Virus record (IMG/VR): IMGVR_UViG_3300037225_001468
Span: 1-64,000 of that record
Strand: one strand, 5' to 3'
Source of the DNA: a virus
Length of the DNA stretch: 64,000 nt
Shown: one piece after another, positions 34,020-51,685 of the stretch
Layout: the number at the start of each line of letters is the position of its first letter
Position numbering within the stretch: position 1 is the stretch's first letter
Program-made: the position numbers and the translations under genes
The notes under the pieces: generated by a model
Told to the model about the DNA's origin: nothing
Database searches by the model: none
Seen by the model: only the letters and a program-made list of their open reading frames with translations

Positions 34020-34020
34020 T

Positions 34021-35532
34021 ATGATTGATAGAAAACAAAAAATTAGTATTGAAAAAGAATTTATTAGTTTATTATTAAAATATAAAGATTTAGTTTCTGA
34101 ATGGAGAGAGACTGGCCCTGATAGGATTTTTTTTGATAATAATCATAAATACATATTAGAAGCGATTATAGAATCTTTTAATAACGATGTTCTTTTAACA
34201 AGAAAAACATTTGAAAGTTTTTTAGAGAAAAGAATATCCGTTAAAAGTGATATAGTTGCTCAAGGATATTTATATTTATCAACTAATTCTATTCCTGTTA
34301 AAAGAGATGATTTTCCAAATCTTAAAGATAAAATAACAGAAGCTTTTTTGTCAAAAAAAGCAATATCAGCTATAGAAGAATTTAGAGATATTTTTTCTAA
34401 AAAGGGAGCCGGCGTAGCTACTAAAAGTCTTTTAGAAAAATTAAAAAATTTAGTAGATGACACAAAAGAAACAAAACAGATATACTATGAATCAATAACT
34501 GATTATTCTGAAGAATATTACGAAAAACTTGTTGAAAAAAGAAATAGAGGGGCAGATGTTGACGTAATAAGATCTCATATTAAGGAAATAGATGAAGCTA
34601 TGGTTGTTGGTTTCGCTCCTGGAACATTAACTTTATTTTGTGGAGACGTTGGAGGATTCAAATCGGCCCAGATGTTAAATGTCGGATCAAATATTTGGCA
34701 GTTTTCTAAAAAGAATGTATTGTTTGTTCCCCTTGAAATGCCAAGGGAAAAAATGTTTCAAAAATTTGTTTCAAGATTTTTGAAGATACCATTTGATAGA
34801 ATAGAACATCCAACTCTTCTTACGGAAGATGAATTAAAAAAAATAGGAACTATAGGTAAATCTATTTTAGATATAGATATTAAAAATAATTCAAAGTTTT
34901 TTATAATGGAGGCTCCTGATCAAATTAAAGTATCAGTTATAAGGAGAGAAATAGAAAAACATATTGATATCTTTAAGCCTAATGTTGTTATAATAGATTA
35001 TATTGCCAATTTAGTGCCTGATGGTAATGATAGAAATGATCTAGAAATAGGATATATGTTAAAGGCTTTGAGGACAATGGGGAAACCTGGAGGAATGACT
35101 CATGATGGATTCGCTATTGTTTCTGGAGCTCAAATAGGAAGAGAAGCATTAAAAAGGATAAGAAGAAGCGCGGCTAATAAAATGGCTTTTTATTCTGAAG
35201 ATTTAAGGGGATCTCATGAATATTCTGCTGATGCTGATAATATTTTTGCACAAATGGAAGATCCTCAACAACCTCAAAGTCGGTTAAATATATATGTCAT
35301 TAAGGCTAGATATGGAAAGAAGATTTTCAATAACGGATCAATTAAAGCATCTTTAGAAGTAAAACCTGAAATAAGTTTAATTCAAAGTGTTAATGATTCT
35401 TTTTATAAAGTTAAGCATGAAGAGATAATGAACAAAATAAATAGTTCTAATGATTTGAATTTTGAAGAAAATAAGACTACAGAAAAATCTATTACTAATG
35501 ATGTTGAACTTGATAAAATACTAGGACTGTAA
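34021..35532 (+). CDS. dnaB: Replicative DNA helicase, DnaB/gp41-like
   Basis: Start ATG 34021 is used; upstream in-frame TTG codons would overlap the loader gene. The 503-residue protein has an N-terminal helical domain (~1-150) and a RecA-like C-terminal motor. Walker A is CGDVGGFKSA (G208 to S215), where phenylalanine replaces the usual last glycine. Walker B is VVIIDYIANLVP (D326), and VPLEMPRE supplies the DnaB-type E-M-P segment. The C-terminus (KARYGKKIFNNGSI) matches the hexamer arginine-finger region. It unwinds DNA ahead of the fork and acts with the adjacent primase piece, whose ATG overlaps its stop. Confidence 0.85.
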   Translation: MIDRKQKISIEKEFISLLLKYKDLVSEWRETGPDRIFFDNNHKYILEAIIESFNNDVLLTRKTFESFLEKRISVKSDIVAQGYLYLSTNSIPVKRDDFPNLKDKITEAFLSKKAISAIEEFRDIFSKKGAGVATKSLLEKLKNLVDDTKETKQIYYESITDYSEEYYEKLVEKRNRGADVDVIRSHIKEIDEAMVVGFAPGTLTLFCGDVGGFKSAQMLNVGSNIWQFSKKNVLFVPLEMPREKMFQKFVSRFLKIPFDRIEHPTLLTEDELKKIGTIGKSILDIDIKNNSKFFIMEAPDQIKVSVIRREIEKHIDIFKPNVVIIDYIANLVPDGNDRNDLEIGYMLKALRTMGKPGGMTHDGFAIVSGAQIGREALKRIRRSAANKMAFYSEDLRGSHEYSADADNIFAQMEDPQQPQSRLNIYVIKARYGKKIFNNGSIKASLEVKPEISLIQSVNDSFYKVKHEEIMNKINSSNDLNFEENKTTEKSITNDVELDKILGL

Positions 35533-36200
35533 TGGCGGAAAAAATTAGTAAATTTGTTGTTGATACTATTTGTTCAAAATATTCTATTGAAGATTTTCTG
35601 TCTTCTATTGGTATAGAATTAAAATATAAATATGAAGACAAACTAATATATATATGTCCTTTACATAAAGATAGTAAACCTTCTTTTGTTGTATATACGA
35701 GTGGGGAGTTCCAAACTTATTATTGCTTTGGATGTCAATCTACTGGAAATATAATTTCATTATACTCTAAAGTAAAAAATATATCTTTTACGGAAACAAT
35801 AAATCAATTAGGTGGATATAATGTTTCTAATAAAGATGAAATAAATTTTATAGTTGATTATCTTAAAAAAAAAGAAGAAAATAGTAAAGACAAAAAAGAT
35901 AATGAAGATATATTTTCTAATATATCGTTAAACATAAGTAGAGTATGTTATGATTTTTTAATAAGAGTCAATTTTGATATAGAAGAACAAAATATTTTAG
36001 AAAAATTATATAAAAAAATAGATAATTATATTTTATTGGAGAACATAAAAGGTTTATTAGAATTATATTTTATTATTATTGGAGAAAATAAATATGATAA
36101 AAATATTTTAATGGAAAGAGAAAAGATATACGAAGACAGAAAGAATAAAATAGATACAGAATATGATGAAGTTTATAAAGAACTGGGTATAACATTATGA
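35532..36200 (+). CDS. dnaG: Primase zinc-binding (CHC2) domain as a separate protein
   Basis: This 222-residue protein has a CHC2 zinc finger: C42-x2-H45, then C65-x2-C68 (CPLHKDSKPSF, YYCFGCQSTGN), the DNA-recognition part of bacterial DnaG. It has no TOPRIM catalytic core; the last ~130 residues are helical and lysine-rich. The missing core seems to be encoded 11 kb away at 47389-48168. Start and stop overlap the neighbouring helicase and methyltransferase genes, placing it in one operon with the helicase. It probably finds priming sites for the separately encoded catalytic half. Confidence 0.8.
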   Translation: MAEKISKFVVDTICSKYSIEDFLSSIGIELKYKYEDKLIYICPLHKDSKPSFVVYTSGEFQTYYCFGCQSTGNIISLYSKVKNISFTETINQLGGYNVSNKDEINFIVDYLKKKEENSKDKKDNEDIFSNISLNISRVCYDFLIRVNFDIEEQNILEKLYKKIDNYILLENIKGLLELYFIIIGENKYDKNILMEREKIYEDRKNKIDTEYDEVYKELGITL

Positions 36201-37069
36201 ATGATAAAAATGATTTCATAGATAAAATTATATGTGAAGACAATTTATCTGTTTTAAAAAGAATGCCTGATTCTTTTGTTGATCTTATATTCACTTCTCC
36301 TGTTTATAACGTAAATATAAAATATTTAAGTCATGATGATTGTATGCCGTATGATGTTTATCTTAATTGGCTTAAAGATAGGTTTATTGAGTGTAAGAGA
36401 GTATTAAAGCCAGGTGGAAGATTGGCTATTAATATTGACGCTATGACAAATAGACAATCAGATAAAGAAAAAGAATATGTTAGACCTATTTATGCTGATT
36501 TGGTAAACATGATGAAAAGTAAGGAAATAGATCTTAACTTTAGAACTGAAATATGTTGGTATAAACAGAATGCGGTAGGAAAAAAGACTGGGTGGGGTAG
36601 TTTTTGTTCTTCTAGCAACCCAGTTATACGACGAAATCATGAATATATTTTAGTTTGGTCAAAAGATCAATGGAAATTAGAGGGAGATAGTGAACAATCG
36701 GATATGACATTTGAAGAGTTTAATGAATATACTTTTTCTACATGGTTTATTCAGCCAGAAACAAGGAAATTGGGAGGTCATCCAGTCCCATTTCCATGCG
36801 AATTAGCAAAAAGAGTTATTAAACTATTTACTTATAGAGACAATATAGTTATGGATATTTTCTCTGGATCAGGGACAACCTGTTATGTAGCTAAACAATT
36901 TAATAGAAAATATATTGGAATAGATATTGATAAGCAGTATTGTGAGTTTGCTAATAATAGAATAAAACAGTTTGAAGACGATATAATGAGTGAAGAAAAA
37001 TATATTATTAGATCTGAAAGATTAAAAAAAAGTAAAATATTAGATAAAGAAATGGAAAATTTGTTATGA
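36197..37069 (+). CDS. Beta-class DNA methyltransferase (N4-cytosine or N6-adenine)
   Basis: This 290-residue enzyme has the permuted beta-class order. The catalytic motif comes first (FTSPVYN, T33-Y37, a TSPPY variant with valine for the second proline), then target-recognition sequence, then the SAM-binding motif DIFSGSGTTCYVA (220-232) followed by YIGIDID. TSPPY-type motifs are common in cytosine-N4 enzymes but also occur in adenine ones, so the base is uncertain. No restriction enzyme gene is nearby. It overlaps its neighbours by 4 bases each side. Confidence 0.85.
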   Translation: MNDKNDFIDKIICEDNLSVLKRMPDSFVDLIFTSPVYNVNIKYLSHDDCMPYDVYLNWLKDRFIECKRVLKPGGRLAINIDAMTNRQSDKEKEYVRPIYADLVNMMKSKEIDLNFRTEICWYKQNAVGKKTGWGSFCSSSNPVIRRNHEYILVWSKDQWKLEGDSEQSDMTFEEFNEYTFSTWFIQPETRKLGGHPVPFPCELAKRVIKLFTYRDNIVMDIFSGSGTTCYVAKQFNRKYIGIDIDKQYCEFANNRIKQFEDDIMSEEKYIIRSERLKKSKILDKEMENLL

Positions 37070-37485
37070 TCCTTCCAGATAATGATTTAGTTTTTGAAAT
37101 AGAGTTTGATGACATAACTATGTTAGAGTCAGAAGGAAACTTTTTTGAAGTTGAAAAAATAATGGAAAAAGAAATGTTTGGAGGAAAAGAGTGGATGATA
37201 GAAACTAATGTTATGATAAATAACCCTTATGGATCATCAGAAATGAACTTACATTTTTTTTCTAATAAAGATGTTTTTATAATGAGTTTTGCTACAACAT
37301 CTAAAGAGGATGTTTTTTATAATCCAGATATAAGGTGTGTTTCTATGTGGGCTCAAGAAAATGGATGGAATATACCACAACCGAGTCCAGATTTAATTGG
37401 AGATAATTTAAATTTTTGGAAACATTTTTGGGAAACAGGTCTTATTAATTCTAAATATTTAGATAAAAAATATGGAAAGAAATAA
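37066..37485 (+). CDS. Unknown 139-residue protein
   Basis: ATGA overlap with the methyltransferase suggests coupling. The protein is acidic at the N-terminus and rich in aromatic residues later (MWAQENGWNIPQ, FWKHFWETG). I do not recognise a family and see no catalytic motif. Confidence 0.55.
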   Translation: MILPDNDLVFEIEFDDITMLESEGNFFEVEKIMEKEMFGGKEWMIETNVMINNPYGSSEMNLHFFSNKDVFIMSFATTSKEDVFYNPDIRCVSMWAQENGWNIPQPSPDLIGDNLNFWKHFWETGLINSKYLDKKYGKK

Positions 37486-37709
37486 TGTTTCGAACATGTA
37501 AATATTGTTATATAAAAGAAAAAATGATTTTTGATAATTCTTTGCTTGAGTATGAAAACTTATTTGGATTTTTGTGTAAAAATTGTGGTATGTTTAATGA
37601 ACCAGTTGCGGATTTGCCTATAGTAGAATATAATAAGAAAGTTAAAGAGAGATTTTTAGAAACAATAAGAGAAAAAATGAGGAGAAAATTTAATGCCAAT
37701 AAATTCTGA
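37485..37709 (+). CDS. Small zinc-ribbon protein
   Basis: This 74-residue protein has CKYC at residues 4-7 and CKNC near 31-34, a four-cysteine zinc site, followed by a basic helix (KKVKERFLETIREKMRRK). The ATG shares a base with the upstream TAA. It may bind nucleic acid; the function is unknown. Confidence 0.55.
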   Translation: MFRTCKYCYIKEKMIFDNSLLEYENLFGFLCKNCGMFNEPVADLPIVEYNKKVKERFLETIREKMRRKFNANKF

Positions 37710-38220
37710 TAAGTCGAAAATTACTTTAGATTTTGAGTATGAAAACGAAAAAATAAAATACTTAGTGAAATATCATCATACTGATGATTTCGGTCCCACT
37801 GTCTCTTTGTCTGAAGAAGGAACTAATTCTGTTAGTTTTCCTGCTGAAATGTTTTCTGAGATAACTGACTTTTTAAGAGAACAAAAACACTTGCGATATC
37901 CTAAAATAGAAGTAAGGCAAAAAGAAACAGTAGAAAAAACTTTACCAATTCCGGAAATACAAATAGAAGAAGATGATAAGAAAATAGACATGATAAACGA
38001 AGATAGCAAGGGAGAAATTAAGGAATTTGAAAGTTTTGATATTGAGACTAAAACAGTCAAAGAGCAAGAAGAAATAAACACGCAAGTTAAAAAACAACCT
38101 ATTAATATTGAAGCAAAAGAAGTAGATTCTAAAGAATTTATAGAAGAACGAAGAAATGCTGCTGAAAAAGCTAAATTATCTCAAAAAAAGATTAAGAGAT
38201 TAGATAATATAGAGGAATAA
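37693..38220 (+). CDS. Acidic, partly disordered protein, unknown
   Basis: This is a 175-residue protein. Residues 1-75 look folded and beta-rich (ITLDFEYENEKIKYLVKYHH). The rest is Glu/Lys-rich and probably disordered. It overlaps the zinc-ribbon gene by 17 bases and has AGGAG upstream. No family is recognised. Confidence 0.55.
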   Translation: MPINSDKSKITLDFEYENEKIKYLVKYHHTDDFGPTVSLSEEGTNSVSFPAEMFSEITDFLREQKHLRYPKIEVRQKETVEKTLPIPEIQIEEDDKKIDMINEDSKGEIKEFESFDIETKTVKEQEEINTQVKKQPINIEAKEVDSKEFIEERRNAAEKAKLSQKKIKRLDNIEE

Positions 38221-38223
38221 AAA

Positions 38224-38466
38224 ATGGAATATCCCTGTAAGCTAGTTCCGGTATTAAAAGTTTTATCAACTCCAAAAGGACTTTTTGAGCCTTTATGTAA
38301 TAGTTGTAAAACTAAAGATTGCACTAATCCGGTGGAGGAAAGAGAGATTAGTATATTAGGAGTAAATAAAAAGTTTAGAATGTATATGCGTGGAGATGAC
38401 CCATGTTTTGTAATTCAATGTAATGAAGGATATACTACAGATGATAATGAAGAAGATGACATTTGA
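38224..38466 (+). CDS. Small cysteine-containing protein, unknown
   Basis: This 80-residue protein has cysteines near the N-terminus and the segment CNSCKTKDCTNPVE, which could bind a metal. The end is acidic. The next gene starts inside it. Not recognised. Confidence 0.5.
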   Translation: MEYPCKLVPVLKVLSTPKGLFEPLCNSCKTKDCTNPVEEREISILGVNKKFRMYMRGDDPCFVIQCNEGYTTDDNEEDDI

Positions 38467-39250
38467 TGAATATCAACAAATAAATAACGATATAAATGCT
38501 AAATACAAACAAAATGCTCAATTATTAAAAGATAATATTGAGAAGATAAGTAAACGCAAAGATACTAAAACAATAGTTTATCCTGAATTAAAAGAAGCAT
38601 TTGACTTTGTTGATTCTGTTTTTCCTAAATCTAATGTTAAAGAAGTTAAAGTTCTTGTTTGTGATAGAAAATTTCTTGAAGATTTAGGATATAAGGGGAT
38701 TGGCGGATTTTTTGAAAGAGTTATGAAGACTGTTGTTATACCTGATAATTTAAATTTCTCTTCTAATAAAAAAACAGATAAAAAAACAGATATAAAAATA
38801 TGTGCTAAATTAACTACTGATGAAGTCCTCGTTCATGAACTTTTTCATTATGTTTCTGATACATTTAATAAAAAGATTAGTTCTATAGAAATGGAAGAAG
38901 AATTTGCTTATGGAAATTCTATAGCATATTTAAAGAAAAAAGGTTATTCTGAAGAACAAATTATAAATGATAAATTTATGCCGTTTTTATATAATTCTAT
39001 TGATAAAAATAAAATAGTTAAAAAAGTTTTAATAGATAAAGATTATGATATTAAAGAGTTTTCTACTAAATCTACCAAATATCAAAAAGATATTATAAAC
39101 AAATATAAAAAACAAATAATTGAAGAAACAAAAAAAGAAGCATTCAAAAAGGGTCAAGAAATAATAGAAATATATAAACCTTTTACTACTCAAGAAATAA
39201 AAATAGAAGACGGTTCAAAAAGATTTGATTTAATTGATTTTGGAGATTAA
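38441..39250 (+). CDS. Zincin-type metallopeptidase (HExxH)
   Basis: The start is uncertain: ATGs at 38423, 38441, 38447 and 38456 are in frame. 38441 is chosen because AAGGA lies about 10 bases upstream; 38456 is also plausible. The ~269-residue protein carries VLVHELFHYV, an HExxH zinc-binding and catalytic motif, about 125 residues in. A downstream EEEFAYGNSIAYL segment could supply the third zinc ligand. The last ~80 residues are lysine-rich helices. No signal peptide is present, so it would act inside the cell or in the particle. Its substrate is unknown. Confidence 0.65.
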   Translation: MIMKKMTFDEYQQINNDINAKYKQNAQLLKDNIEKISKRKDTKTIVYPELKEAFDFVDSVFPKSNVKEVKVLVCDRKFLEDLGYKGIGGFFERVMKTVVIPDNLNFSSNKKTDKKTDIKICAKLTTDEVLVHELFHYVSDTFNKKISSIEMEEEFAYGNSIAYLKKKGYSEEQIINDKFMPFLYNSIDKNKIVKKVLIDKDYDIKEFSTKSTKYQKDIINKYKKQIIEETKKEAFKKGQEIIEIYKPFTTQEIKIEDGSKRFDLIDFGD

Positions 39251-39252
39251 AA

Positions 39253-39531
39253 ATGCCAATATATCAATATAAAGGTAAAATAAATGGTAAAATATATGAG
39301 ATATCTCGTTCTATCTCTGAACGAGAAAAAGAATATATTGCTGAAGATGAAGAAGTGTGTGAATTTATTCCTTGGTATTTAGTAGAGAAAATAAAGTCTA
39401 ATCTTGGTATTATTGATAAAAATGCTGAGGCTTGGGAAAAAGATGCTGAGTATGTAAAGAAGTGTGCTCCAAAATATGTAAAGTATAGAGATGGACATCG
39501 GGAAAAATTTGACCCAACAAGACATTGTTGA
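39253..39531 (+). CDS. Unknown 92-residue protein
   Basis: It follows the metallopeptidase after two bases. The first half is beta-type (YQYKGKINGKIYEISR); the second is charged (EKDAEYVKKCAPKYVKYRDG). No family is recognised. Coupling to the peptidase gene is suggested by spacing only. Confidence 0.5.
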   Translation: MPIYQYKGKINGKIYEISRSISEREKEYIAEDEEVCEFIPWYLVEKIKSNLGIIDKNAEAWEKDAEYVKKCAPKYVKYRDGHREKFDPTRHC

Positions 39532-39552
39532 AGAAAAATAAAAAGGCTGGCT

Positions 39553-39636
39553 GTGACTGAAGTGTCTCAAATTAGAGACCGGATTGATTTTGATGTTTTT
39601 AGAGAGAATATGTTAAAATTAGGAGATTCTTGTTGA
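39553..39636 (+). CDS. Possible 27-residue GTG-start gene
   Basis: GTG 39553 has AAAAAGG about 6 bases upstream, and the frame (VTEVSQIRDRIDFDVFREN and a short end) closes with TGA overlapping the next gene's TTG start. The peptide looks protein-like, but it is too short to judge. Confidence 0.3.
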   Translation: MTEVSQIRDRIDFDVFRENMLKLGDSC

Positions 39637-39980
39637 GATATATTAGGCAACAAGTTGTAACTACTACAATATCTAATGAAGAACTTACTTCAAAAGATAT
39701 TATTTTATCTCTATGTAAAAAAATACAAGAGTCAAGTGTAGATGTCTCTATAGAATATAGAGATAAAAAAACTGATAGTGTAAAATCATACGCTAAAGCA
39801 AGAGTCACATCTGTTAAAGACAATTCTCTTAGCATAAGAGCATTTTTTGGTAAGAGTAATATAACTATTGAAGATATTGATTTTGAAAGTATTATCACTT
39901 TGAAACTGGTGACAGCAAAACATAATATAGTGTCTGGTAACCAAGAAATGTCTAAGTTTGACTTTCTTGATATTGAGTAA
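39633..39980 (+). CDS. Unknown 115-residue protein, TTG start
   Basis: TTG 39633 is chosen because AGGAG sits 7 bases upstream; no ATG is available nearby. The product is a small alpha/beta protein (SKDIILSLCKKIQES, SYAKARVTSVKDNSLSIRAF) of unknown family, placed just before the polymerase gene. Confidence 0.5.
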   Translation: MRYIRQQVVTTTISNEELTSKDIILSLCKKIQESSVDVSIEYRDKKTDSVKSYAKARVTSVKDNSLSIRAFFGKSNITIEDIDFESIITLKLVTAKHNIVSGNQEMSKFDFLDIE

Positions 39981-39987
39981 AAAATAT

Positions 39988-41400
39988 ATGAAGTTTAATA
40001 ATTGTGATTTTGTGCATACACATAGTCATACGGACTTCTCGCAATTTGACGGAATGTGTAATGTTAAAGAGTTTGCCCTAAAAGCAAGAGAGATGGGTTT
40101 TCCTGCTTTAGCGATTACTGATCATGGAAATATAGGTGGATGGATTAAGTTTATTAAAGAATGTTCTGCTACTAAAGATAAAAAAGATAATCCTATTCCT
40201 TTTAAGCCTATTAAACCCATTTTAGGCTGTGAATTTTATTTATGTCGTCATAGAGAGTATAAAAATAAAGAATTACAGCCAGATGGAAGAAAGGGTAATC
40301 GTCATTTAATTTTACACGCTAAGAACTGGAAGGGATATCAAAATCTTTGTTCATTATCTCAAGAGTCTTGGGTTGATGGATTTTATTCTAATCCAAGAAT
40401 AGATTTAGAGCTTCTTGAAAAATATCATGAAGGACTAATTTGTCAAACAGCATGTCTGTCAAGTATAGTTAATGCTAATCTTTTGGCTGGAAGATATGAT
40501 AAGGCAAAAAGAATATGTTCTATATTTAAGGATATGTTTAAGGAAGATCTGTTTTTAGAAGTTCAATATCATGGAATAGATTCTGAAAGAATAATAATTC
40601 CAGATATAATAAAACTTTCTAAAGAATTGAACCTATTAATGGTTTGCTCGAACGATTCTCACTATTTGGAAAAATCTCATGCCAAGTCTCATGAAGTATT
40701 ACTTTGTATGTCTTCGTCAAGATGCCTTAGTGATCCAAAGCATTTAAGTTTTCCGTATGATGAGTTTTATATGAAGAGTGCAGATGAAATGGGGAAAATG
40801 TTTGGAGATATTCCTCAATGTATTTATAACACTATTGCTTTGGCTGAGAGAATTAATTCTGATGATATAAATAAAAACCTATTTGGAGGCATGAGACTTC
40901 CCGATATTGATATCCCAAAAGAATTTGAAACAAATGTTAAATTTGAAGGGCAATACAATTATATTGTAAAATTAGCCCAAGACGGAATGAAAGCAAAAGG
41001 ATGGGATAAAAGTCAAAAACATATTGATCAATTAAATAAAGAACTAAATGATATTAGAGTTGCTTGGGAAAATAATGGTTATGACTTTGCTACTTATTTT
41101 CTTATAGAATATACTATTATCAATGAAGCAAAAAAGAGAGGGATATTAACGGGTCCGGGTCGTGGAAGTGGATTTGCTAGTGTTTTATTACACTGTTTGG
41201 GAATAGCTTATGGGTGCGATCCGATAAATTATGATTTAATTTGGGAAAGGTTCCTAGGTTTCGATCACAAAAAATTCATAAAAGAGTCTGACTTTGGATT
41301 TAAGGATGAGTCGTATGATATTGGTAATATACAAGATACTACAGAAGAAGAAAACGAAGAAATAAATCAGGTTCTTGAGGGAGATGAAGAAGAATTATGA
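39988..41400 (+). CDS. dnaE: DNA polymerase III alpha, N-terminal part (PHP and start of palm)
   Basis: ATG 39988 gives 470 residues. The PHP domain starts FVHTHSHTDFSQFDG with metal ligands H10, H12, H14 and D16, and continues TDHGNIGGW and NDSHYL. At 389-394 comes GPGRGS, the start of the family C catalytic region, followed by LGIAYGCDPINYDLIWERFLGF. In ordinary DnaE the next motif is PDxDxDF with two catalytic aspartates. Here the gene instead ends after an acidic ~45-residue tail, and those aspartates lie in the gene at 41997. The product alone cannot polymerise. No intein motif is seen at the break. A ClpP-like gene follows after 16 bases. Confidence 0.88.
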   Translation: MKFNNCDFVHTHSHTDFSQFDGMCNVKEFALKAREMGFPALAITDHGNIGGWIKFIKECSATKDKKDNPIPFKPIKPILGCEFYLCRHREYKNKELQPDGRKGNRHLILHAKNWKGYQNLCSLSQESWVDGFYSNPRIDLELLEKYHEGLICQTACLSSIVNANLLAGRYDKAKRICSIFKDMFKEDLFLEVQYHGIDSERIIIPDIIKLSKELNLLMVCSNDSHYLEKSHAKSHEVLLCMSSSRCLSDPKHLSFPYDEFYMKSADEMGKMFGDIPQCIYNTIALAERINSDDINKNLFGGMRLPDIDIPKEFETNVKFEGQYNYIVKLAQDGMKAKGWDKSQKHIDQLNKELNDIRVAWENNGYDFATYFLIEYTIINEAKKRGILTGPGRGSGFASVLLHCLGIAYGCDPINYDLIWERFLGFDHKKFIKESDFGFKDESYDIGNIQDTTEEENEEINQVLEGDEEEL

Positions 41401-41416
41401 AAACAGGAAATATTTA

Positions 41417-41995
41417 ATGGACAATAGTGGAACACAAACTGGAACGCCCTATGATATCAAAAAGAGTAGAATGATATATTTAAGTGGGGACGTAAACGAA
41501 GAACAGTCTAAATCTGTTATTAAGGATATTTTAGAACTTGAAGTTTCCAATCCTCAATCTGATATTGTTTTGTATATAGATTCTCCCGGGGGTTATGTAG
41601 ACAGTTTTATAGCCATGCACGATTTTATGAAATTGTGCAGATGTGATATAGCTACCGTGTGTATGGGTAGGGCGATGAGTTGCGGTATGCTTTTGTTGAT
41701 TAGCGGGACCAAAGGAAAAAGGTTTATAACTCCTAACTCAAGAGTTTTAGTTCATGCTATATCTTCATGGAGTGGTGGTAATGTTCACCAGTTAGATAAT
41801 GATATAAAAGAAACAAAAAGACTACAGGAACTATTAGAAGGACTGATAAAAAGATATACTAATATGTCTTCTAAAAAAATAAAAGAATTGATGTCTAAGG
41901 ATTCATATTTAGATGCTAATTCCGCATTGAATTTTGGAATTGTTGATCATATAATATACAAGTCTTCTGATCTGCATTCTCACATAAGGGTATAA
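41417..41995 (+). CDS. clpP: ClpP-like serine protease located between the polymerase halves
   Basis: ATG 41417 has AGGAAA at 6 bases. The 192-residue product has the full ClpP triad: S88 in GRAMSCG, H113 in LVHAIS and D162 in MSKDSYL. It also has the fold signatures YIDSPGGYVDS and FGIVDHI. ClpP forms tetradecameric chambers fed by AAA+ unfoldases such as ClpX. Many phages use ClpP-fold proteases to mature capsids, but those genes sit in head modules; this one lies within the replication module. It might work with a host unfoldase, on the split polymerase, or on something else. Only its placement is seen. Confidence 0.88.
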   Translation: MDNSGTQTGTPYDIKKSRMIYLSGDVNEEQSKSVIKDILELEVSNPQSDIVLYIDSPGGYVDSFIAMHDFMKLCRCDIATVCMGRAMSCGMLLLISGTKGKRFITPNSRVLVHAISSWSGGNVHQLDNDIKETKRLQELLEGLIKRYTNMSSKKIKELMSKDSYLDANSALNFGIVDHIIYKSSDLHSHIRV

Positions 41996-41996
41996 T

Positions 41997-43976
41997 GTGG
42001 CAAAAAGTGATATAGAAATTAGAAACGAGTTATTATCTTTTGTAAAAATTAAGGATAGTAATGAGTTAAAAAAAATAGAACAGGAATTAGATATTCTGTC
42101 TATTACTGAAGGTTTGGATGAAAAAAGTAATCTTGAATCCTTTTACAATATTTGGGATAAAAGAAAAGGTCAAATTGGTAACGAAAATAAAATTAACAGT
42201 TGGCTTGCTTATCATTTAGGTTTAACGTTAGCTAAACCTAATGGGGAATTTTTGCCATTAAGAAGAGCTTTTGCTAGAGCAGGTTTTCCTGATATAGATA
42301 GTGATTTTGATTATTTTCATCGTCAAGAAATTTATGATTTTATTATAGAAAAATTTGGCAGAGAATATGTTGGTAATATTGGAACTTATAATGGATTAAA
42401 ATTAAAAGCCACTATTAGAAGATTAGGAAAAGCTTTAGATGTTGCTGGTTCTTTTTTTAAGGGATCTAAAGCTAATAAAACCGACAATGAAGAAAAGGTG
42501 ACAGAAATAGTAAAGTCATTACCTCCTCAAAGGGGAGCGGTTCTTAAAGTTAAAGATGAAGATGGTAATGATAGGGCTATAAAGACTGTTGAGGATGCCT
42601 ATAAATATTGTGGTGATTTTAGAAATTATATAGATAAATATCCTGGTATTAGAGAACACGCTAAGAAAATTGAGGGTTTAACATCTAATGTAGGATGTCA
42701 TGCTTCTGGGATTTTAATATCTAATGTCCCACTAAAACAGATAGCTCCATTAAAAAATATTAAAAAAGGATTAGTCACTCAGTTTCCTTATGAAGATTTA
42801 GAAAGCATCGGATTGATAAAATTTGATATTCTTGCCTTAAGCTCTTTGACTGTTATTCAAAAAACTATAGAAATGGTAAAACAAAATTATGGCATAACTA
42901 TTGATATTGCCAATTTGCCTCTTGATGATGAAAAAACATTTGAACTTTATAGAAGTGGAAATTTGGTTGGAGTGTTTCAGTGTGAAAACGGGGGAATGCA
43001 AAACACAATTCAAGAAATTGAGGCAAGCTGTTTTGATGATATTATGGCAGCGATTGCTTTGTATCGTCCTGGTCCAATGATATCTATTCCCGAGTATTGT
43101 GCAAGAAAGAAGGGGATAAATGAAGTAAATTATTTTCATCCATCAATAGAAAAATATGTAAAACCTTATTTAGAGAAAACATATGGTCTTATTGTATATC
43201 AAGAGCAAGTTATGCAGATATGTAATTCTCTTGCTGATTTTAGTATAACAGAAGGCTATGTTATGATTAAGGGTGTAGGTAAAAAGAAAGATTATTTAAT
43301 ACAAAAGTTTAAGAAGAGATTTTTAGAAGGAACAGCTAAGAAGGGTGTATTAAATTCTGTTTCTGAAGAATATTGGGATAAGTATATAACTCCATTTTCC
43401 AGCTACGGTTTTAATAAGTCACATTCCTGTTCTTACGGTTTATTGTCTTACTATAGTGCTTTTTTGAAGGCTAATTATACAGAAGAGTTTATGGTGTCAT
43501 TTTTGAATGTTGAAAATTATAGAAAAAAACACGACAAAATAGCAGTTTTAGAAAAAGACTTAAAGAGATTTGATATTTATCTTCATCCAAGAAACATTAA
43601 CACTTGTGGAGTTGATTACAAAATAATAAAGAAAAAAGATACTTTATCGGGTGTTGTTAGATCTGAGATAATGCCTTCTGTTATGTGTAAGGGTATGGGT
43701 CTAGATGCCGCTCAAGAGTTAGAAAAAAATGCTCCATATGAAGGATTAAGAGATATAGCTTTTAAGACTAATTCTAAATTATTTGATAATAGAGCCATGA
43801 CCTGTTTAATAGAAGCTGGATTTTTTGATAATGAGTTTAAGGAATATAAAAAAGCTAATAAGGGTGTAAAAAAAGAAGAATTTCAAGAAATAATTCTTAA
43901 AAAATTTACTTCACTAAGAGAAGATTCTAAGGCTTCTAAAAAATTAGGATTAGGAACTGAATCGCTTTTTGATTAA
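41997..43976 (+). CDS. dnaE: DNA polymerase III alpha, C-terminal part (catalytic palm, fingers)
   Basis: GTG 41997 has AAGGG at 6 bases. The 659-residue product begins with ~97 residues without clear match, then PDIDSDF with catalytic D101 and D103. The third palm aspartate is in IKFDILALSSLTV near 277. Fingers and tail motifs follow: LYRPGPM, YGLIVYQEQVMQI, KGVGKKK, FNKSHSCSYGLLSYYSAFLKANY. Together with the gene at 39988 it would rebuild a complete family C polymerase. The C-terminal OB-fold and tau-binding regions of DnaE (usually to ~1160 residues) seem absent or divergent. No 3'-5' exonuclease domain is present. Confidence 0.88.
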   Translation: MAKSDIEIRNELLSFVKIKDSNELKKIEQELDILSITEGLDEKSNLESFYNIWDKRKGQIGNENKINSWLAYHLGLTLAKPNGEFLPLRRAFARAGFPDIDSDFDYFHRQEIYDFIIEKFGREYVGNIGTYNGLKLKATIRRLGKALDVAGSFFKGSKANKTDNEEKVTEIVKSLPPQRGAVLKVKDEDGNDRAIKTVEDAYKYCGDFRNYIDKYPGIREHAKKIEGLTSNVGCHASGILISNVPLKQIAPLKNIKKGLVTQFPYEDLESIGLIKFDILALSSLTVIQKTIEMVKQNYGITIDIANLPLDDEKTFELYRSGNLVGVFQCENGGMQNTIQEIEASCFDDIMAAIALYRPGPMISIPEYCARKKGINEVNYFHPSIEKYVKPYLEKTYGLIVYQEQVMQICNSLADFSITEGYVMIKGVGKKKDYLIQKFKKRFLEGTAKKGVLNSVSEEYWDKYITPFSSYGFNKSHSCSYGLLSYYSAFLKANYTEEFMVSFLNVENYRKKHDKIAVLEKDLKRFDIYLHPRNINTCGVDYKIIKKKDTLSGVVRSEIMPSVMCKGMGLDAAQELEKNAPYEGLRDIAFKTNSKLFDNRAMTCLIEAGFFDNEFKEYKKANKGVKKEEFQEIILKKFTSLREDSKASKKLGLGTESLFD

Positions 43977-43988
43977 AAGGAGAAATAA

Positions 43989-44294
43989 ATGGCAGATGAG
44001 ATTAAGAGTAGTATTTCTGAAAGAAATACTAAAGTGATTAAAGGGATAGAGAGAACATTAAATACTGGCAAGTATGAGAGTATTAGAATATCTGTTTCTT
44101 TTGAAGAAGAAATTGTTTGGACCACTCTTGATGAAAGACAAAAAAAAATAGATGCTATATCTAAGCATGTTATTAATGATTTTCAGAAGACTAAAAGTGA
44201 AGTTTGTCAGTCTTTAGGATTAGAAGAGAAAAAAGCTTTTGGAAACAACAAAGAAGATACTGTTGTAGATAATGGTATTTTTGATAAACTATAA
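43989..44294 (+). CDS. Unknown 101-residue protein after polymerase
   Basis: AAGGAG precedes the ATG. The middle reads as a beta strand pair (KYESIRISVSFEEEIVWTT), followed by a long helix (ERQKKIDAISKHVINDFQKT). I cannot name the family. The gene lies in the polymerase-SSB-RecA run, so a replication accessory role is plausible. Confidence 0.55.
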   Translation: MADEIKSSISERNTKVIKGIERTLNTGKYESIRISVSFEEEIVWTTLDERQKKIDAISKHVINDFQKTKSEVCQSLGLEEKKAFGNNKEDTVVDNGIFDKL

Positions 44295-44309
44295 AGAAAA
44301 GGAAATATT

Positions 44310-45503
44310 ATGCCAGAAATAGATGAAATAATGGACATATTTGGTATCCCCAAAAAAAGTAATGATCCTGGATCGGAAACTGAAGAGGCTACGGATAATG
44401 ATGAAGTGTATGATACTCTAGGAAAACAGGGAGATACTGTTCCATTTGAAGAAAAGGTTAAAGATGTTAAAGAAGTTATACAAAAAGCTGTAGCTGAACT
44501 TGGAATACCATCTTCAGTCAAGAAAGAAGATAAATCTGTTTCTAATGAAGAAACTATTAAGGTGTCAGTAGAAGAAGTAAAGTCAAAAAGCTGTGAGGAA
44601 GATATTCTTGATATATCTAATGAGATAATTAAAGAAGATATTAAAAAAGAAGAAGATAAAAGAATTGATGTCATGTTAAATAAACCGGCAATTCCTTTTA
44701 TGGTTTCTGAGACAAAAGAAGAATTACCAGCAGGTGTTGAAAACAAAAAAGAAACATATGTTATTGTAAATCTTCAGGATTGGAATTTAGAGTCTCCATC
44801 GCCTAAATATGATAAATTTTATGCGGAAAAAAAGAATATTCTTAAAACCATATTAAAGGGTGGAAAATTGCCTTTTGATGATTATGAGAAAGATCTAATT
44901 GACTGTAAGGTTGATGTCTCTATACCTATTTTTGATACTGCTGAAATACATAGAAAAATGCAAGAAGTTCAGGGGTGGAGAGACAGGATAAAAGAAATAC
45001 AGATGAATTGCTCTAAACAATATTTTAAGTGGGAAACGGCCTTACAGCTTCTTGAGGGCTTATTATCCAAAGTTGAATATACTAAACCATCGGCAGGCAG
45101 GGACGGTATTATTTATGAACATTTGGCTGATATGAAGTTTTATTTTGATGATTTAAAAAACATACACAGGTCTGCTGAAATAGTATCTAAACACATGGAT
45201 AATGCTTTTGATTGTCTGTCTAGACAAGCAACTATAGCTATGCCTAATAGGAACATAGAAAGATCTAATACCACTTGGGGAAATGTAAATAAAGATGAAG
45301 CGTTTTCTGAAAAAAAAGATATATTGACAAAAGAAATATTTCCCATAGCTAAAAAAGAAGAAGTAAATATACCAGAAAAACTAAAAGATTTTGATATTTT
45401 AGGAGAATTAGGAGATGGAGCAATTAAACCTGTAGTTAAAGAGAAAAAAATAGATTTAGATAATGGGGCAAAGCAAATATCTTGGGAATCCTTAATGAAA
45501 TAA
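44310..45503 (+). CDS. Acidic two-part protein in replication module, unknown
   Basis: This is a 397-residue protein. Residues 1-150 are Glu/Asp/Lys-rich and likely disordered. Residues ~155-310 look folded and helical (YKTYAEK-like start, then VQGWRDRIKEIQMNCSKQYF, KFYFDDLKNIHRSAEIV). The end is again charged, with an acidic/aromatic tip (QISWESLMK). I do not recognise it. The layout of disordered tails around a helical core would suit a mediator or scaffold acting with the SSB-like and RecA proteins directly downstream; that is inference. Confidence 0.5.
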   Translation: MPEIDEIMDIFGIPKKSNDPGSETEEATDNDEVYDTLGKQGDTVPFEEKVKDVKEVIQKAVAELGIPSSVKKEDKSVSNEETIKVSVEEVKSKSCEEDILDISNEIIKEDIKKEEDKRIDVMLNKPAIPFMVSETKEELPAGVENKKETYVIVNLQDWNLESPSPKYDKFYAEKKNILKTILKGGKLPFDDYEKDLIDCKVDVSIPIFDTAEIHRKMQEVQGWRDRIKEIQMNCSKQYFKWETALQLLEGLLSKVEYTKPSAGRDGIIYEHLADMKFYFDDLKNIHRSAEIVSKHMDNAFDCLSRQATIAMPNRNIERSNTTWGNVNKDEAFSEKKDILTKEIFPIAKKEEVNIPEKLKDFDILGELGDGAIKPVVKEKKIDLDNGAKQISWESLMK

Positions 45504-45515
45504 TGGAGGATAAGC

Positions 45516-46187
45516 ATGAATTTTTGGGACAATATAAGTAAAGGTATAGACAAGAATAAGCCGAGATACATGAAACTTGTTAGTGGCCATAAATATAAGA
45601 TTAGGCCATTAGGGATACCATATGAAATTAAAAAATATCTATTAAAGCATAATGAACAGTGGAGATCTGCTATATGTTTAGACGTAGAAACATGTCCAGT
45701 GGCTAATAAACATAACATTTTGCCCAAAGACAAATGTGTTATGAATGTTATTAATAGGGAAAGTGGTCAGATAGAAATACTTGAAAATTATCCAAATGTT
45801 TTTTACGAGATGGCTAATTTTTACAATAAAACAGGTAAAAATCCCGGAGGAACAGATGGAGCTCATTTTGAATTGTCTGTATCTGGGTCTGGTTCATCTA
45901 CAAAATATACTATGAAGTTTTTAGGGCCACACATCCTTTCAGAAGAAGATATAGCGTTAGTTAAGAAAAATGGACTGTATGATCTTAAAAAAATATATAG
46001 AGCTACTGATCCGAATAAAATAGAACAGGTTTTATTTGGAGAAAATGGATATAAAAATGATGAAAAAGAAGTTAATGTTATTACTGGAACAAATAAGCAT
46101 TTTAGTGATGAAGATGTCGATAATAGTATAAGTAAAGCATATCAAAAAGAGAAAGTCACAACGACATTACTTGATCTTGATTTTTAA
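45516..46187 (+). CDS. Probable phage single-stranded DNA-binding protein
   Basis: This 223-residue protein has GGAGGA upstream. It begins with a small aromatic N-terminus, then SGHKYKIRPLG and a cysteine region (ICLDVETCPVANKH then KDKCVMNVIN). This is the type of OB-fold plus zinc arrangement seen in gp32-like and other phage SSBs. The C-terminus is acidic and ends TTLLDLDF, an acidic-aromatic tip typical of SSBs that contact partners. It is immediately upstream of RecA. The assignment rests on layout and context, not a strong family match. Confidence 0.55.
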   Translation: MNFWDNISKGIDKNKPRYMKLVSGHKYKIRPLGIPYEIKKYLLKHNEQWRSAICLDVETCPVANKHNILPKDKCVMNVINRESGQIEILENYPNVFYEMANFYNKTGKNPGGTDGAHFELSVSGSGSSTKYTMKFLGPHILSEEDIALVKKNGLYDLKKIYRATDPNKIEQVLFGENGYKNDEKEVNVITGTNKHFSDEDVDNSISKAYQKEKVTTTLLDLDF

Positions 46188-46205
46188 TATCAAAAAGGAG
46201 ATTTT

Positions 46206-47423
46206 ATGACAAAAGATAAGAAAAAAGAACCTAAAAAAGATATAGTTTTAGAGAACTTAAAGGGGTTTGTTCGTCTTGGAGCTTCTTCTGAGATATCGGG
46301 AAATGTTCCTACAGGGCATTTTGATTTAGACTTTGTTATTCATCATGGAACGTTGCCTTCTAATGTAGACCTGTCAACATTAAAAGATTATGATCCTTCT
46401 AAGTCTCTTGGTTTGCCATTAGGTAAATTGGTAGAGATATTTGGAGAGGAAGGTGGAGGAAAATCATCTCTTGCTTATAGGATAGTAGGATATGCTCAGA
46501 AAATGGGTTTTAAGTGTGCGTGGATTGATACAGAACATAGTTTTTCTGATAGTCTATCTTACATAAATGGTGCAAGAAAAGAAGATATTTATTATGCTAA
46601 CATGTCAAATTCTGAGAATGTTGATACCGTTTTTTTTGCGGAAGATGTTTTTGATGCTATTGTTAATTTAATAAAGAGTGAGGTTAAAGTTATAGTTCTG
46701 GATTCAGTTGCTAATCTTGTCCCTCAAGCTAGATTTGAAAAAGAAGCAGGACAAGCCACTGTAGGTATTGTTGCTAAATTGATGTCTGAAAACTTAGGAA
46801 AAATAGTTAATTATGCTGCTAAATATGGAGCATTGGTAATATTCATAAATCAGTTGAGAGAAAAGATTGGTGTATTTTTTGGATCTCCTGAAACTACTCC
46901 TGGTGGTCGAAGTTTGAAACATAATGCTTCCGTGAGATTACAGGTATCAAAAAAGAACAGTAAAGAAGCCGACATTTTCAGAGAAGATGAAGGTGGAAAA
47001 CAGGTTCTTATTGGGCGAAAGGCCAGGATTAATGTTAAAAAGAATAGATTTGCTAAGCCATTTTTTGAAGGAATAGAAGTTCCAATTTATTATGAACCAT
47101 ATTTTCCTGATATTGAAGAAATGATGTTTGATACAGGTAGGCAGTTAAAAATTATTAGTGTTTATAAGGGAGTGTTTAAGTGGGAAGGAGTGGAAGAAGA
47201 AGGACGTAAATCTTTTGTTAAAAAATTAAAAGAAGAAAAATTACAAAATAAATTATTTTTTGATTTACAAAAACAAGCTTTAGAAGATGGTTTGTTTTTA
47301 GCTCCAGAACTTTCTCAGTGGGCCGAAGAAAATTATAATCCAGAAGATATACAAGAGGCAGCAAAGCAGATAGATGAAGGAGTAAATAATGAGAAACCAA
47401 CAGATGAGGGACAAACTGAATGA
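46206..47423 (+). CDS. recA: RecA/UvsX-type recombinase
   Basis: This is a 405-residue protein with a strong AAAAAGGAG start site. Walker A is G80-EEGGGKS87; CAWIDTEHSFS is the RecA E96-type segment; Walker B is VIVLDSVANLVP (~160-170). The L1-type region has EAGQATVG, and L2 is TTPGGRSLKHNASVRL, as in RecA. It forms filaments on single-stranded DNA for strand exchange, repair and recombination-dependent replication. The C-terminal ~100 residues are Lys/Glu-rich and may carry a RecA-like domain. The next gene starts 35 bases inside its 3' end with its own strong ribosome binding site. Confidence 0.9.
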   Translation: MTKDKKKEPKKDIVLENLKGFVRLGASSEISGNVPTGHFDLDFVIHHGTLPSNVDLSTLKDYDPSKSLGLPLGKLVEIFGEEGGGKSSLAYRIVGYAQKMGFKCAWIDTEHSFSDSLSYINGARKEDIYYANMSNSENVDTVFFAEDVFDAIVNLIKSEVKVIVLDSVANLVPQARFEKEAGQATVGIVAKLMSENLGKIVNYAAKYGALVIFINQLREKIGVFFGSPETTPGGRSLKHNASVRLQVSKKNSKEADIFREDEGGKQVLIGRKARINVKKNRFAKPFFEGIEVPIYYEPYFPDIEEMMFDTGRQLKIISVYKGVFKWEGVEEEGRKSFVKKLKEEKLQNKLFFDLQKQALEDGLFLAPELSQWAEENYNPEDIQEAAKQIDEGVNNEKPTDEGQTE

Positions 47424-48168
47424 TGCTGAAAGGGTGAAAATAGTTGAAAATGCTAAATTAGAAATAAAAAATCATAAAGATGTTGTAGAATATCTGAAAT
47501 CTAATAAAAGACATTTTACTGATGAAGGTATAGATTTTATAGTAAAAGAGTTTTCTGTAGGATATATGCCAGAAGGCGTATATAATTTATATGGAGATTT
47601 TCACGAATTTTCTGGAAGAATAATTTTACCCATATATGATCAGTATAATGAATTGATCGCATTATCTTCAAGAGATTGGAGAGAAAATGCTTATATGAAG
47701 TTTTTTCATGAGAGTTTTCCTAAAACTCGTTATTTATATGGATTAAATGTAGCAAAAGAAAGTATCATAAAAAACAAAAGAGCTATTTTGGTAGAAGGTG
47801 AATTTGATGTTCAATATCTACATTATAGAGGAATTAAAGAAACAGCAGGCATTATGAGTAGTAATTTACATCTATATCAAATATCTTTATTGTGTAGGTA
47901 TTGTAAAGATATATATATAGTTTTTGATGGAGATAATTCTGGCAAAAAGTCTAAAGATAAAATTGTAAATAAAAGTATTTCTATGAAGATGTTTTCTATG
48001 TATGATATCAATATTATTCCTGTTATATTGCCAGACAAAATGGATCCTGATGATTTTGTTTTTAACAATGGAGTAAAAGAGTTTAATAATTTATTAGAAA
48101 AATCGAAGAAAGATTTTGACGAGGGTTCGGACGAAAGAATTAAAGAAGAAATATTATATAAGGTGTAA
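47389..48168 (+). CDS. dnaG: Primase catalytic (TOPRIM) domain as a separate protein
   Basis: AAGGAG lies 6 bases before ATG 47389, which supports this start despite overlap with RecA. The 259-residue protein matches the DnaG core: FVKEFSVGYMP-like N-part, FSGRIILPIYD, and KTRYLYGLN. The TOPRIM motifs are VEGEFDV (E136) and VFDGDNSG (D180, D182). It lacks the zinc-binding domain, which is a separate gene at 35532-36200, and the helicase-binding C-terminal domain. It would make RNA primers once partnered with the zinc-finger protein. Confidence 0.85.
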   Translation: MRNQQMRDKLNDAERVKIVENAKLEIKNHKDVVEYLKSNKRHFTDEGIDFIVKEFSVGYMPEGVYNLYGDFHEFSGRIILPIYDQYNELIALSSRDWRENAYMKFFHESFPKTRYLYGLNVAKESIIKNKRAILVEGEFDVQYLHYRGIKETAGIMSSNLHLYQISLLCRYCKDIYIVFDGDNSGKKSKDKIVNKSISMKMFSMYDINIIPVILPDKMDPDDFVFNNGVKEFNNLLEKSKKDFDEGSDERIKEEILYKV

Positions 48169-48171
48169 AAA

Positions 48172-49185
48172 ATGTCAAATGATTCTAGTATTTTTTTAGT
48201 GTCTCCTGAAATAAGTTCTGTAATGGGCGTTATGGATGCTCACTTGAAATGGAAAAGTGCGAACGGAAAACCCAGGGGATATGAGACATATCATCCTAGT
48301 GCGTTTGGGGCATGTTTAAGAAATATGCAGTATTTTAGATATGTAGAAAAGGGATATATTCAAATATCTGTTGAGGAGTTTGATAGTAAGACAATAAGGA
48401 TATTTGACACAGGTCATACCATGCACTCTCGTTGGGCTTCTTATTCTGAAGATATAGGGATATTAAGAGGATATTGGATATGCACAAATCCAATGTGCAG
48501 AATAATAGATGATGAAGGAAAATTAATAAAAAATATATCTAATGATATAATAAGTTCGCAAACAGAAAAGCCAAGAATGTATGGTAAAAAAGACCCATTA
48601 GGATGTTTTAAACCGGAAAAATGTATTTGTGGAAATAATGTTTTTGAATATAGAGAAATTGATGTTAGTAGTAAAGAGCTTAACTTTTACGGTCATGCTG
48701 ATATGGTTTGGGATTTTTCTAAGTTTAATCCTGAAAAATACAACGGATTTAAGAAGGGTTTTAATATGGAATTGCTTCCAAAAAATCCAGTTGTTGTTGA
48801 CATGAAAACGATAAATGATTATGGATATAAAAAAGTGTTACAATCAGGACCAGATCTAAAATATAAAATTCAACTAACTATATATGCCAATTTGTTACCT
48901 GTGGAATATGGACTACTTATTTATGAAAATAAAAATTCATCAGAGGTTGCTCCCTATAAGATAGACAAATCAACAGATAATATTTTTGCGCAAATAAAAA
49001 AACAAGCAATTTCTATGAATGAAATGGTTCCGTTAAAATTATTACCTCCTCCGAGGCCATTAGATCAAGATGATATTGAGTGTAGAAAATGTCCTTTTGC
49101 TCAAGTTTGTCATAAATCTAAGATTTGGTCTGATAAAGATTTAGTTCAAAAGAGAAAGAGCTTTTATGGCAATTTAATGAAATAA
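48172..49185 (+). CDS. PD-(D/E)XK nuclease, Cas4/RecB-like
   Basis: This 337-residue protein has the RecB-family layout: an early GHTMHSRW histidine, a GHADMVW segment supplying an aspartate, VVVDMKT (D210, K212) as the D-x-K core, and QLTIYANLLP as the conserved Q-Y motif. Mid-protein cysteines (CTNPMC, CICG) may hold a zinc. C-terminal C304, C307 and C313 (CRKCPFAQVC) resemble the iron-sulphur cysteines of Cas4/AddB-type nucleases. It probably resects DNA ends or trims recombination intermediates alongside RecA. No Cas1/Cas2 or CRISPR array is present, so this is not evidence of CRISPR. Confidence 0.8.
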   Translation: MSNDSSIFLVSPEISSVMGVMDAHLKWKSANGKPRGYETYHPSAFGACLRNMQYFRYVEKGYIQISVEEFDSKTIRIFDTGHTMHSRWASYSEDIGILRGYWICTNPMCRIIDDEGKLIKNISNDIISSQTEKPRMYGKKDPLGCFKPEKCICGNNVFEYREIDVSSKELNFYGHADMVWDFSKFNPEKYNGFKKGFNMELLPKNPVVVDMKTINDYGYKKVLQSGPDLKYKIQLTIYANLLPVEYGLLIYENKNSSEVAPYKIDKSTDNIFAQIKKQAISMNEMVPLKLLPPPRPLDQDDIECRKCPFAQVCHKSKIWSDKDLVQKRKSFYGNLMK

Positions 49186-49251
49186 AATTATTATGTCGAT
49201 ATAATTGATGTATATATTTTGAGATTATTTTTGTAAAACAAGGAGAAAAAC

Positions 49252-49602
49252 ATGACAAACTCAAAAGAAAACGTGAACGGAAATGTAAAAACACCTTTTA
49301 GTAATTCTAGTGATCCGGCTTTTCTTGCTGTTAAAGGTAATTTTGAAAACAAGGATGACGCCAAGGCTTATGTAAAAGATTTAGCTAAAGCTGTTTTTGT
49401 TGTATTTCAAAAGCTTAATACAGCAAAACTTCGTTGTATTGGTGCAGCATCACTGAATAATGCGATTAAGGCTACGATTATTGCTTCTGGAGAAGCAAAG
49501 AAAAAGAGTTTGAATTTTGCTATAGTTCCATCATTTACTACTGTTCAATTTGATGGAGGAGAAGATAGAACTGCTGTAGTATTAGAAGTCGTTAAGATTT
49601 GA
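49252..49602 (+). CDS. SpoVS-like protein (Alba-type fold)
   Basis: This is a 116-residue protein with a perfect AAGGAG site in a 66-base leader. The first ~25 residues are a polar extension. The rest matches SpoVS: a helix AKAYVKDLAKAVFVVF, RCIGAASLNNAIKATIIASG, FAIVPSFTTVQFDGGEDRTAVVLEVV. SpoVS proteins are small single-domain members of the Alba superfamily, known from sporulating bacteria and others, where they influence sporulation; Alba folds bind nucleic acid. It is followed by a clear terminator-like hairpin and preceded by one of the larger gaps, so it may be a separately expressed, abundant DNA- or RNA-binding protein. Confidence 0.8.
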   Translation: MTNSKENVNGNVKTPFSNSSDPAFLAVKGNFENKDDAKAYVKDLAKAVFVVFQKLNTAKLRCIGAASLNNAIKATIIASGEAKKKSLNFAIVPSFTTVQFDGGEDRTAVVLEVVKI

Positions 49603-49613
49603 TTTTGCACAAA

Positions 49614-49648
49614 AAATAGTAAGTCAGAAATGATTTGCTATTTGTTTT
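49614..49648 (+). terminator. Rho-independent terminator-like hairpin
   Basis: A 13-bp stem (49614-49626 with 49631-49643, two G-U pairs) closes a GAAA tetraloop at 49627-49630 and is followed by GTTTT. It lies 11 bases after the SpoVS-like gene stop. The A-tract before the stem could make it work in both directions. Confidence 0.7.
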
Positions 49649-49659
49649 AATGAGGATAA

Positions 49660-50262: not shown

Positions 50263-50270
50263 GGATATCT

Positions 50271-51680: not shown

Positions 51681-51685
51681 TATAA

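Follow-up and report, generated by a model that had tools for sequence, protein, structure and literature searches.

A DNA polymerase III alpha divided within its palm between two adjacent genes in large phages, with halves that overlap in sequence

A polymerase encoded by two genes

The stretch of DNA analysed here (the window) comprises the first 64 kb of the 117.7 kb viral IMG/VR record IMGVR_UViG_3300037225_001468. It encodes a DnaE-type DNA polymerase III alpha (Pol III alpha) that is divided within the palm, with the GRGSG motif on a gene at 39988-41400 and the catalytic PDIDSD motif on a gene at 41997-43976. We refer to the two products as N-half and C-half; a gene for a ClpP-like protease lies between them. 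The features of the locus are as follows (aa, amino acids; dNTP, deoxynucleoside triphosphate).

39988..41400, + strand: Pol III alpha N-half, ATG start, 470 aa; PHP domain and palm entry segment with GRGSG
41158..41172, + strand: GRGSG at residues 391-395, the Gly-Ser motif that binds dNTP, preserved in the N-half
41257..41397, + strand: N-half tail beyond ERFL, a conserved F..(ExD)FGF followed by an acidic variable tail; tentatively read as a degenerate catalytic strand
41417..41995, + strand: gene for a ClpP-like serine protease, lying as cargo within the break; 41384 is a second candidate start; also in relative L290 at 6340-6987
41997..43976, + strand: Pol III alpha C-half, GTG start, 659 aa; degenerate palm entry copy, catalytic palm, thumb, fingers and HhH
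41997..42284, + strand: C-half head, residues 1-96; repeats the palm entry segment in degenerate form
42177..42203, + strand: GNENKINSW, the head stretch that replaces PGRGSxxGS
42288..42305, + strand: PDIDSD with catalytic aspartates D99 and D101
42825..42827, + strand: D277, the third catalytic aspartate (KFDILAL), invariant
43956..43973, + strand: C-terminal TESLFD of the C-half; ESMDLF or ETIDIF in relatives; at the position of the internal clamp motif of alpha

Pol III alpha chemistry uses the GRGS motif and the catalytic aspartates within one palm. Pfam assigns to the N-half a PHP domain (PF02811, E = 5.6e-45) and positions 2-100 of the PF07733 profile, and to the C-half positions 69-260 of PF07733, the fingers and HhH. 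All nine PHP metal-ligand positions (H12, H14, D21, H46, E82, H106, C156, D223 and H225) are invariant in 12 relatives and align to the bacterial structure 5lew. RGS is present in all N-halves examined and PD(I/V)D in all C-halves examined. GRGS and the three catalytic aspartates of a DnaE-type C-family polymerase are all present, on two chains and not on one. A second match to either half was not found elsewhere in the record. The gene in between matches PF00574 (E = 1.5e-47) with the Ser, His and Asp of the catalytic triad at aligned positions; its likely start is the ATG at 41417 with an AGGA 8 nt upstream, the earlier ATG at 41384 overlapping the N-half gene.

The IMG/VR database was searched with the C-half, the head and the N-half, and open reading frames (ORFs) were then mapped. 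The same cut was found in 15 further contigs of large phages with 45-64% identity, many of them 100-548 kb long (L001, L002, L003/L007, L004, L006, L008, L019, L132, L290, L294, L295, L297, L302, L304 and L309; L003 and L007, whose match statistics are identical, count as one). In all 15 relatives the cut falls between WERFL and FPDID. These data bear out a preliminary description of the window, which had proposed a Pol III alpha whose catalytic PDIDSDF lies apart from the PHP and Gly-Ser part, a break that separates the Gly-Ser motif from the catalytic aspartates, and an intervening ClpP-like protease with a full Ser-His-Asp triad: all three ORFs were recovered, the triad residues align and the split is a true one.

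Since the split occurs in 16 separate contigs, it is no sequencing or assembly error, an explanation that the preliminary description had still entertained. With regard to an RNA intron that would rejoin the halves, Rfam yielded no match in the window from 38000 to 46000 at E values up to 1, nor in six relatives at gathering cut-offs, and a group I or group II intron between the halves was rejected on this ground. Nothing was found that speaks for an artefact or a rejoining intron, and either is hardly conceivable as the cause of the two-gene arrangement.

Overlapping halves and fused relatives

The PF07733 matches of the two halves overlap (positions 2-100 in the N-half against 69-260 in the C-half), so that the C-half head represents the palm entry in a second, degenerate version and no new domain, a point that escaped the preliminary description along with the recurrence of the split and the fused relatives. 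HMMER, like Pfam, puts both halves over the same palm stretch, and a PDB search maps the end of the N-half onto residues 398-461 and the start of the C-half onto residues 423-510 of the Taq enzyme. In line with head homology, the PF07733 match in L006 begins as early as profile position 6. When a profile of 8 heads was compared with 18 intact phage polymerases, hhalign matched it to 86 columns of their palm entry segment at P = 7e-6 and a score of 36.0; 200 column shuffles reached 23.0 at most. Compared with a profile built from 22 intact polymerases in full length, a profile of 16 heads hit one place, the segment up to PDIDSD, with a score of 40.0; the runner-up scored 20.1 and the best of 100 column shuffles 27.5. 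The head also gave hhalign P values of 3e-6 against intact segments and 6e-5 against the full-length profile at the expected position.

Each copy departs from intact enzymes at a different motif. The C-half heads show a GxxNxxNSW-like sequence where intact enzymes show PGRGSxxGS. The N-half, past ERFL, reads F-(I)-x-E-x-DFGF, and HMMER aligns this tail with the catalytic strand of 5lew in a short alignment; in relatives the position of the first catalytic aspartate is mostly E, also A, and one D is invariant. This is suggestive only of a degenerate copy of the catalytic strand. In the close pairs L002/L003 and L001/L294, head and tail show 0.07-0.19 non-synonymous substitutions per site at a synonymous divergence of about 1 or saturated, like the remainder of the protein. 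Both segments are maintained by purifying selection and are not decaying. The preliminary description had seen in these extra segments tails that might join the halves; the segments are real, but this account was incomplete, as the head of about 97 residues is homologous to a segment that is also present in the N-half. As to the extreme end of the N-half, most relatives terminate in GGVDRY (e.g. L001, 1634-3049), which is absent from the window, and the gap of L297 and L307 holds an unrelated ORF of 110 aa (L307, 9566-9898) with the same terminal ELEDDLGGVDRY.

Two relatives, L131 (998 aa, same gene order) and L005, carry one ORF that spans the cut site. They join exactly the N-half GRGS part to the C-half PDIDSD part, and head and tail are absent, as expected if the GRGS and PDIDSD parts make a working site. 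In a tree of 967 columns both cluster with the split L309 (support 98/96) inside the split set, which forms a single clade in 0 of 200 bootstrap trees; separate N-half and C-half trees each time place them beside L309. WERFLAF and FARPGF are common to L131, L005 and L309, and the junction from ERFL to PDID measures 18 residues in the fused proteins against 7 or 8 in ordinary polymerases. The approximately unbiased test does not reject the alternative to re-fusion (p = 0.053 for all data, 0.135 for the N-half, 0.055 for the C-half and 0.148 with fewer outgroups). A secondary re-fusion in L131 and L005 is therefore favoured, not established. Relatives with an intact polymerase, which the preliminary description had counted as a sign of error, thus do exist; as they nest within the split group, the split is nevertheless no artefact.

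Alternatively, the C-half could polymerise by itself, its head completing a palm devoid of a Gly-Ser motif, and the N-half could be an independent PHP nuclease for proofreading that carries a vestige of the palm. The head does span the palm entry segment, and the N-half has retained all PHP ligands. However, the RGS of the N-half is invariant, which is unexpected for a vestige, and the fused relatives use the N-half copy and not the head. We consider a self-sufficient C-half quite improbable.

Genes in the gap and inteins elsewhere in the gene

The gap between the halves differs from relative to relative. Apart from the window, only L290 has ClpP there (55% identical). The halves of L132 and L309 have no gene between them (3 nt and about 54 nt, respectively), whereas L295 carries a dCMP-deaminase-like gene, L008 a 190-aa ORF, L297 a zinc-finger, probably nuclease, ORF together with small ORFs, and L001, L004, L006, L019, L294 and L304 small ORFs. 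In L002, L003 and L302 a D12 adenine methylase (Dam) lies behind another ORF:

L002 4629-5971, L003 4579-5993, L302 5621-6987: D12 methylase and upstream ORF in the polymerase gap

Hereby, the genes of L002 were checked by Pfam and their counterparts in L003 and L302 paired by eye. The ORF in front of the methylase (170-187 aa) looks nuclease-like by eye, its L002 copy being without a Pfam match, and the two genes may form a restriction-modification pair.

As gap contents vary, the gap is a site of gene gain and loss, with ClpP one inhabitant among many. The two ClpP carriers are sisters in the tree (98/99), so that a single insertion accounts for both. The three-gene order with ClpP that the preliminary description had suggested looking for in related phages hence recurs only in L290. 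ClpP would accordingly be a passenger, acquired by a single sublineage between the two cistrons. A functional tie to the polymerase, e.g. maturation or turnover of both chains by ClpP, could be read from the tight packing kept in both carriers, with 1-30 nt on either side. In 14 other split loci, however, ClpP is missing from this place and the gap is empty or filled with unrelated genes, and the known 117.7 kb hold no AAA_2 unfoldase, which makes such a tie very unlikely.

Dassa et al. reportedly described, in 2009, "fractured genes" whose parts are rejoined through split inteins. Searches of both polymerase halves gave no match to an intein or Hint family. The same searches detect inteins and split inteins elsewhere in the gene of relatives, the control proteins of L006, L019 and L008 matching TIGR01445 or PF14890, so that the method works. 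This agrees with the preliminary description, which had seen no intein at the break. A split-intein fractured gene was rejected, as intein N- and C-halves are missing at the break. In the clade as a whole the polymerase has about five intein sites, some of them split with a free-standing ORF between the parts (a zinc-finger ORF in L019, 6986-7912; a LAGLIDADG ORF in L005, 7530-8684):

N-half residue about 80: intein, split intein or look-alike insert in L003, L008 and L132
N-half residue 222: intein, split intein or look-alike insert in L302
C-half residue about 241: split intein or look-alike in L006, L019, L294 and L302
C-half residue 416: intein or look-alike insert in L019
C-half residue 475: intein or look-alike insert, split in L005, in frame in L008, L290 and L309

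The break, at a highly conserved site, could also go back to an ancient split intein or to the insertion of a homing endonuclease that has since been lost, leaving two genes whose products assemble and a head that is a remodelled interface. Such a history would fit the roughly five other sites at which relatives carry inteins or split inteins, some with an endonuclease-like ORF between the parts, and the polymerase of Bacillus phage G, which has an intein-like insert in its GRG motif and a frame break at KLP before DID. On the other hand, neither tail nor head holds an intein remnant, and about 60-85 palm residues are duplicated in the head, an overlap that insertion alone does not produce. 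We regard a lost intein as unlikely, while a mobile-element insertion could have acted as a trigger, the duplication arising during repair. In phage G (L125, 2246-6218, gp329-gp331) the gene that follows the KLP/DID frame break is annotated as a homing endonuclease, and the insert within GRG/S targets the same motif region.

A proposed two-chain active site and its known counterparts

We propose, with a probability of roughly 0.7, that the replicase became an enzyme of two subunits, assembling in trans, through partial duplication and subsequent complementary loss. The split and its conservation, the overlap, the pattern of kept and lost motifs, the selection, the lack of an intein or intron in our searches and the changing cargo are observed; that duplication was the origin, that the subunits assemble in trans and that the degenerate copies act at the interface is what we infer. 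An ancestral single-chain Pol III alpha gene would have become two genes overlapping across roughly 100 palm residues. The N-half has retained the PHP nuclease and GRGSG and would have lost the catalytic strand (PDIDSD turning into an ExDFGF-like sequence), and the C-half has retained the catalytic aspartates, thumb, fingers and probable clamp-binding end and lost GRGS from its own entry copy. A single active site may then arise in trans, GRGSG coming from the N-half and the PDIDSD strand from the C-half, with C-half head and N-half tail probably serving as a structural or interface "pseudo-palm". As each chain is without one essential active-site element, activity should need both chains, and one active site built from two chains is the simplest model because the losses are complementary and the fused relatives join both intact pieces. 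A more specific version, in which duplication and motif loss produced a heterodimer of one true active site and one pseudo-site and L131 and L005 later deleted the redundant copies and re-fused, is conceivable, albeit at somewhat less than even odds.

Several observations weigh against the proposed origin and assembly. In single sequences head homology is weak (HMMER 0.8 to 8.9 bits, the head of the window scoring 0.8), so that it rests on the profile comparison, and the reading of the tail as a catalytic strand is weak because the alignment is short. A direct match of the head to the N-half segment of its own clade was not found. The single-chain AlphaFold models are weak, with predicted local distance difference test (pLDDT) values of 69 and 73 and a palm that is poorly resolved in both.

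Concerning the missing match within the clade, it implies that the duplication is old or that the copy derived from another polymerase. A recent tandem duplication within the clade was rejected, since the heads match only diverse intact polymerases and not the N-half of the clade; searched alone against 50,697 phage records, the head had no match in described phages. Both AlphaFold models match Pol III folds. Domain placement of the C-half model relative to Pol III alpha is poor (root-mean-square deviation 25-29 Å) and that of the head cannot be read. Palm ends left unresolved in both models fit the idea that they fold only in the complex, without proving it.

A division of Pol III alpha is already known, and the form described here is a variant with adjacent genes, PHP and overlap. 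Jumbo phages of group 2.2 possess a minimal split Pol III alpha with an NTP-binding and a Mg2+/template-binding part that are predicted to reassemble (Iyer et al. 2021, PMC7824862); these parts are without PHP or other Pol III domains, their genes are distant and a family B polymerase is also present. The window shares the division into NTP-binding and metal-binding parts, and differs in its intact PHP domain, adjacent genes and overlapping halves. Among T4-like phages, gp43 of Aeromonas phages 44RR and 25 is split into 43A and 43B; activity is reported for gp43 of phage 25 and for the split NrdA of Aeh1, which work as two chains, and two-part gp43 co-purifies (PMC2988022). Like the window, these are essential phage enzymes on two chains with a break open to gene insertion; they are a family B polymerase and a ribonucleotide reductase split by insertion, and the consulted portion of the review describes no sequence overlap. 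By analogy, the activity of two-part gp43 may be counted in favour of assembly in trans.

Split-intein fractured genes, the split DnaE of cyanobacteria and PolB of phage MIJ3, a divided polymerase gene rejoined by protein trans-splicing (PMC6892783), likewise consist of divided genes, sometimes with a free-standing gene between; their products are trans-spliced, whereas the break in the window is without intein halves. Bacterial DnaE (PDB 2hpi, 2hnh, 5lew and 7pu7) shares domains, catalytic motifs and PHP ligands but is a single chain, while the phage enzyme stops near the clamp-binding motif and is without the OB and tau-binding region. The cox2 gene of Campsomeris similarly became two complementary genes with foreign ORFs between them, a fission caused by insertion; it is mitochondrial, and the portion of the report consulted mentions no overlapping complementary copies (PMC5374615). 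Polymerase genes of huge phages are often cut by endonuclease elements (PMC12363816). Other described phages that we checked are split elsewhere, namely P1201 (L326) near C-half residue 311, near the fingers, KLEB27-3 near C-half residue 340 with an HNH gene between, and LilyPad (L128) after PHP; LilyPad and P1201 are actinophages. In the open-licence literature we found no description of a Pol III alpha that carries PHP, is encoded by two adjacent genes and has palm copies that overlap and complement each other.

Cutting an enzyme through its active site should be lethal, yet large phages retain this split across about 50% protein divergence. The overlap suggests a non-lethal route, with duplication first and complementary motif loss after. 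The family offers fused forms, empty gaps and gaps filled with unrelated genes, which allows a direct comparison of fission, gene capture and possible re-fusion; if duplication and re-fusion did take place, fission and its reversal would be readable within one virus clade. Moreover, in a natural two-part Pol III alpha, mutations affecting dNTP binding and metal catalysis could be placed on different chains.

The C-half ends near the internal clamp motif of alpha, and its last residues (TESLFD, in relatives ESMDLF or ETIDIF), which we take to be a probable sliding-clamp-binding motif, suggest that it probably binds the clamp. Near the locus in relatives, about 25 distinct, mostly small proteins share a C-terminal RFDILDL or RFEILDI (e.g. 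in L305, 3223-11316, L306, L307, L308 and others), against a background of 18 in 12718 ORFs that includes some duplicates from the same phages; in the window, the ORF at 39630-39980 ends in KFDFLDIE. The shared peptide resembles the clamp-binding ends of T4 gp33 and gp55 and could alternatively be a sorting tag.

The split polymerase is part of a compact replication module on one strand (window 33955-53605) with DnaB, RecA, a small DnaG-like primase, a Cas4-like exonuclease and UvrD. The downstream gene and annotated neighbours include:

43989..44294, + strand: downstream gene with a homologue 3' of the split (L132) and of the fused (L131) polymerase, i.e. synteny; translations compared by eye
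33955-35532: DnaB-like helicase
46206-47423: RecA
47389-48168: DnaG-like primase
Within the module: Cas4-like exonuclease and UvrD helicase

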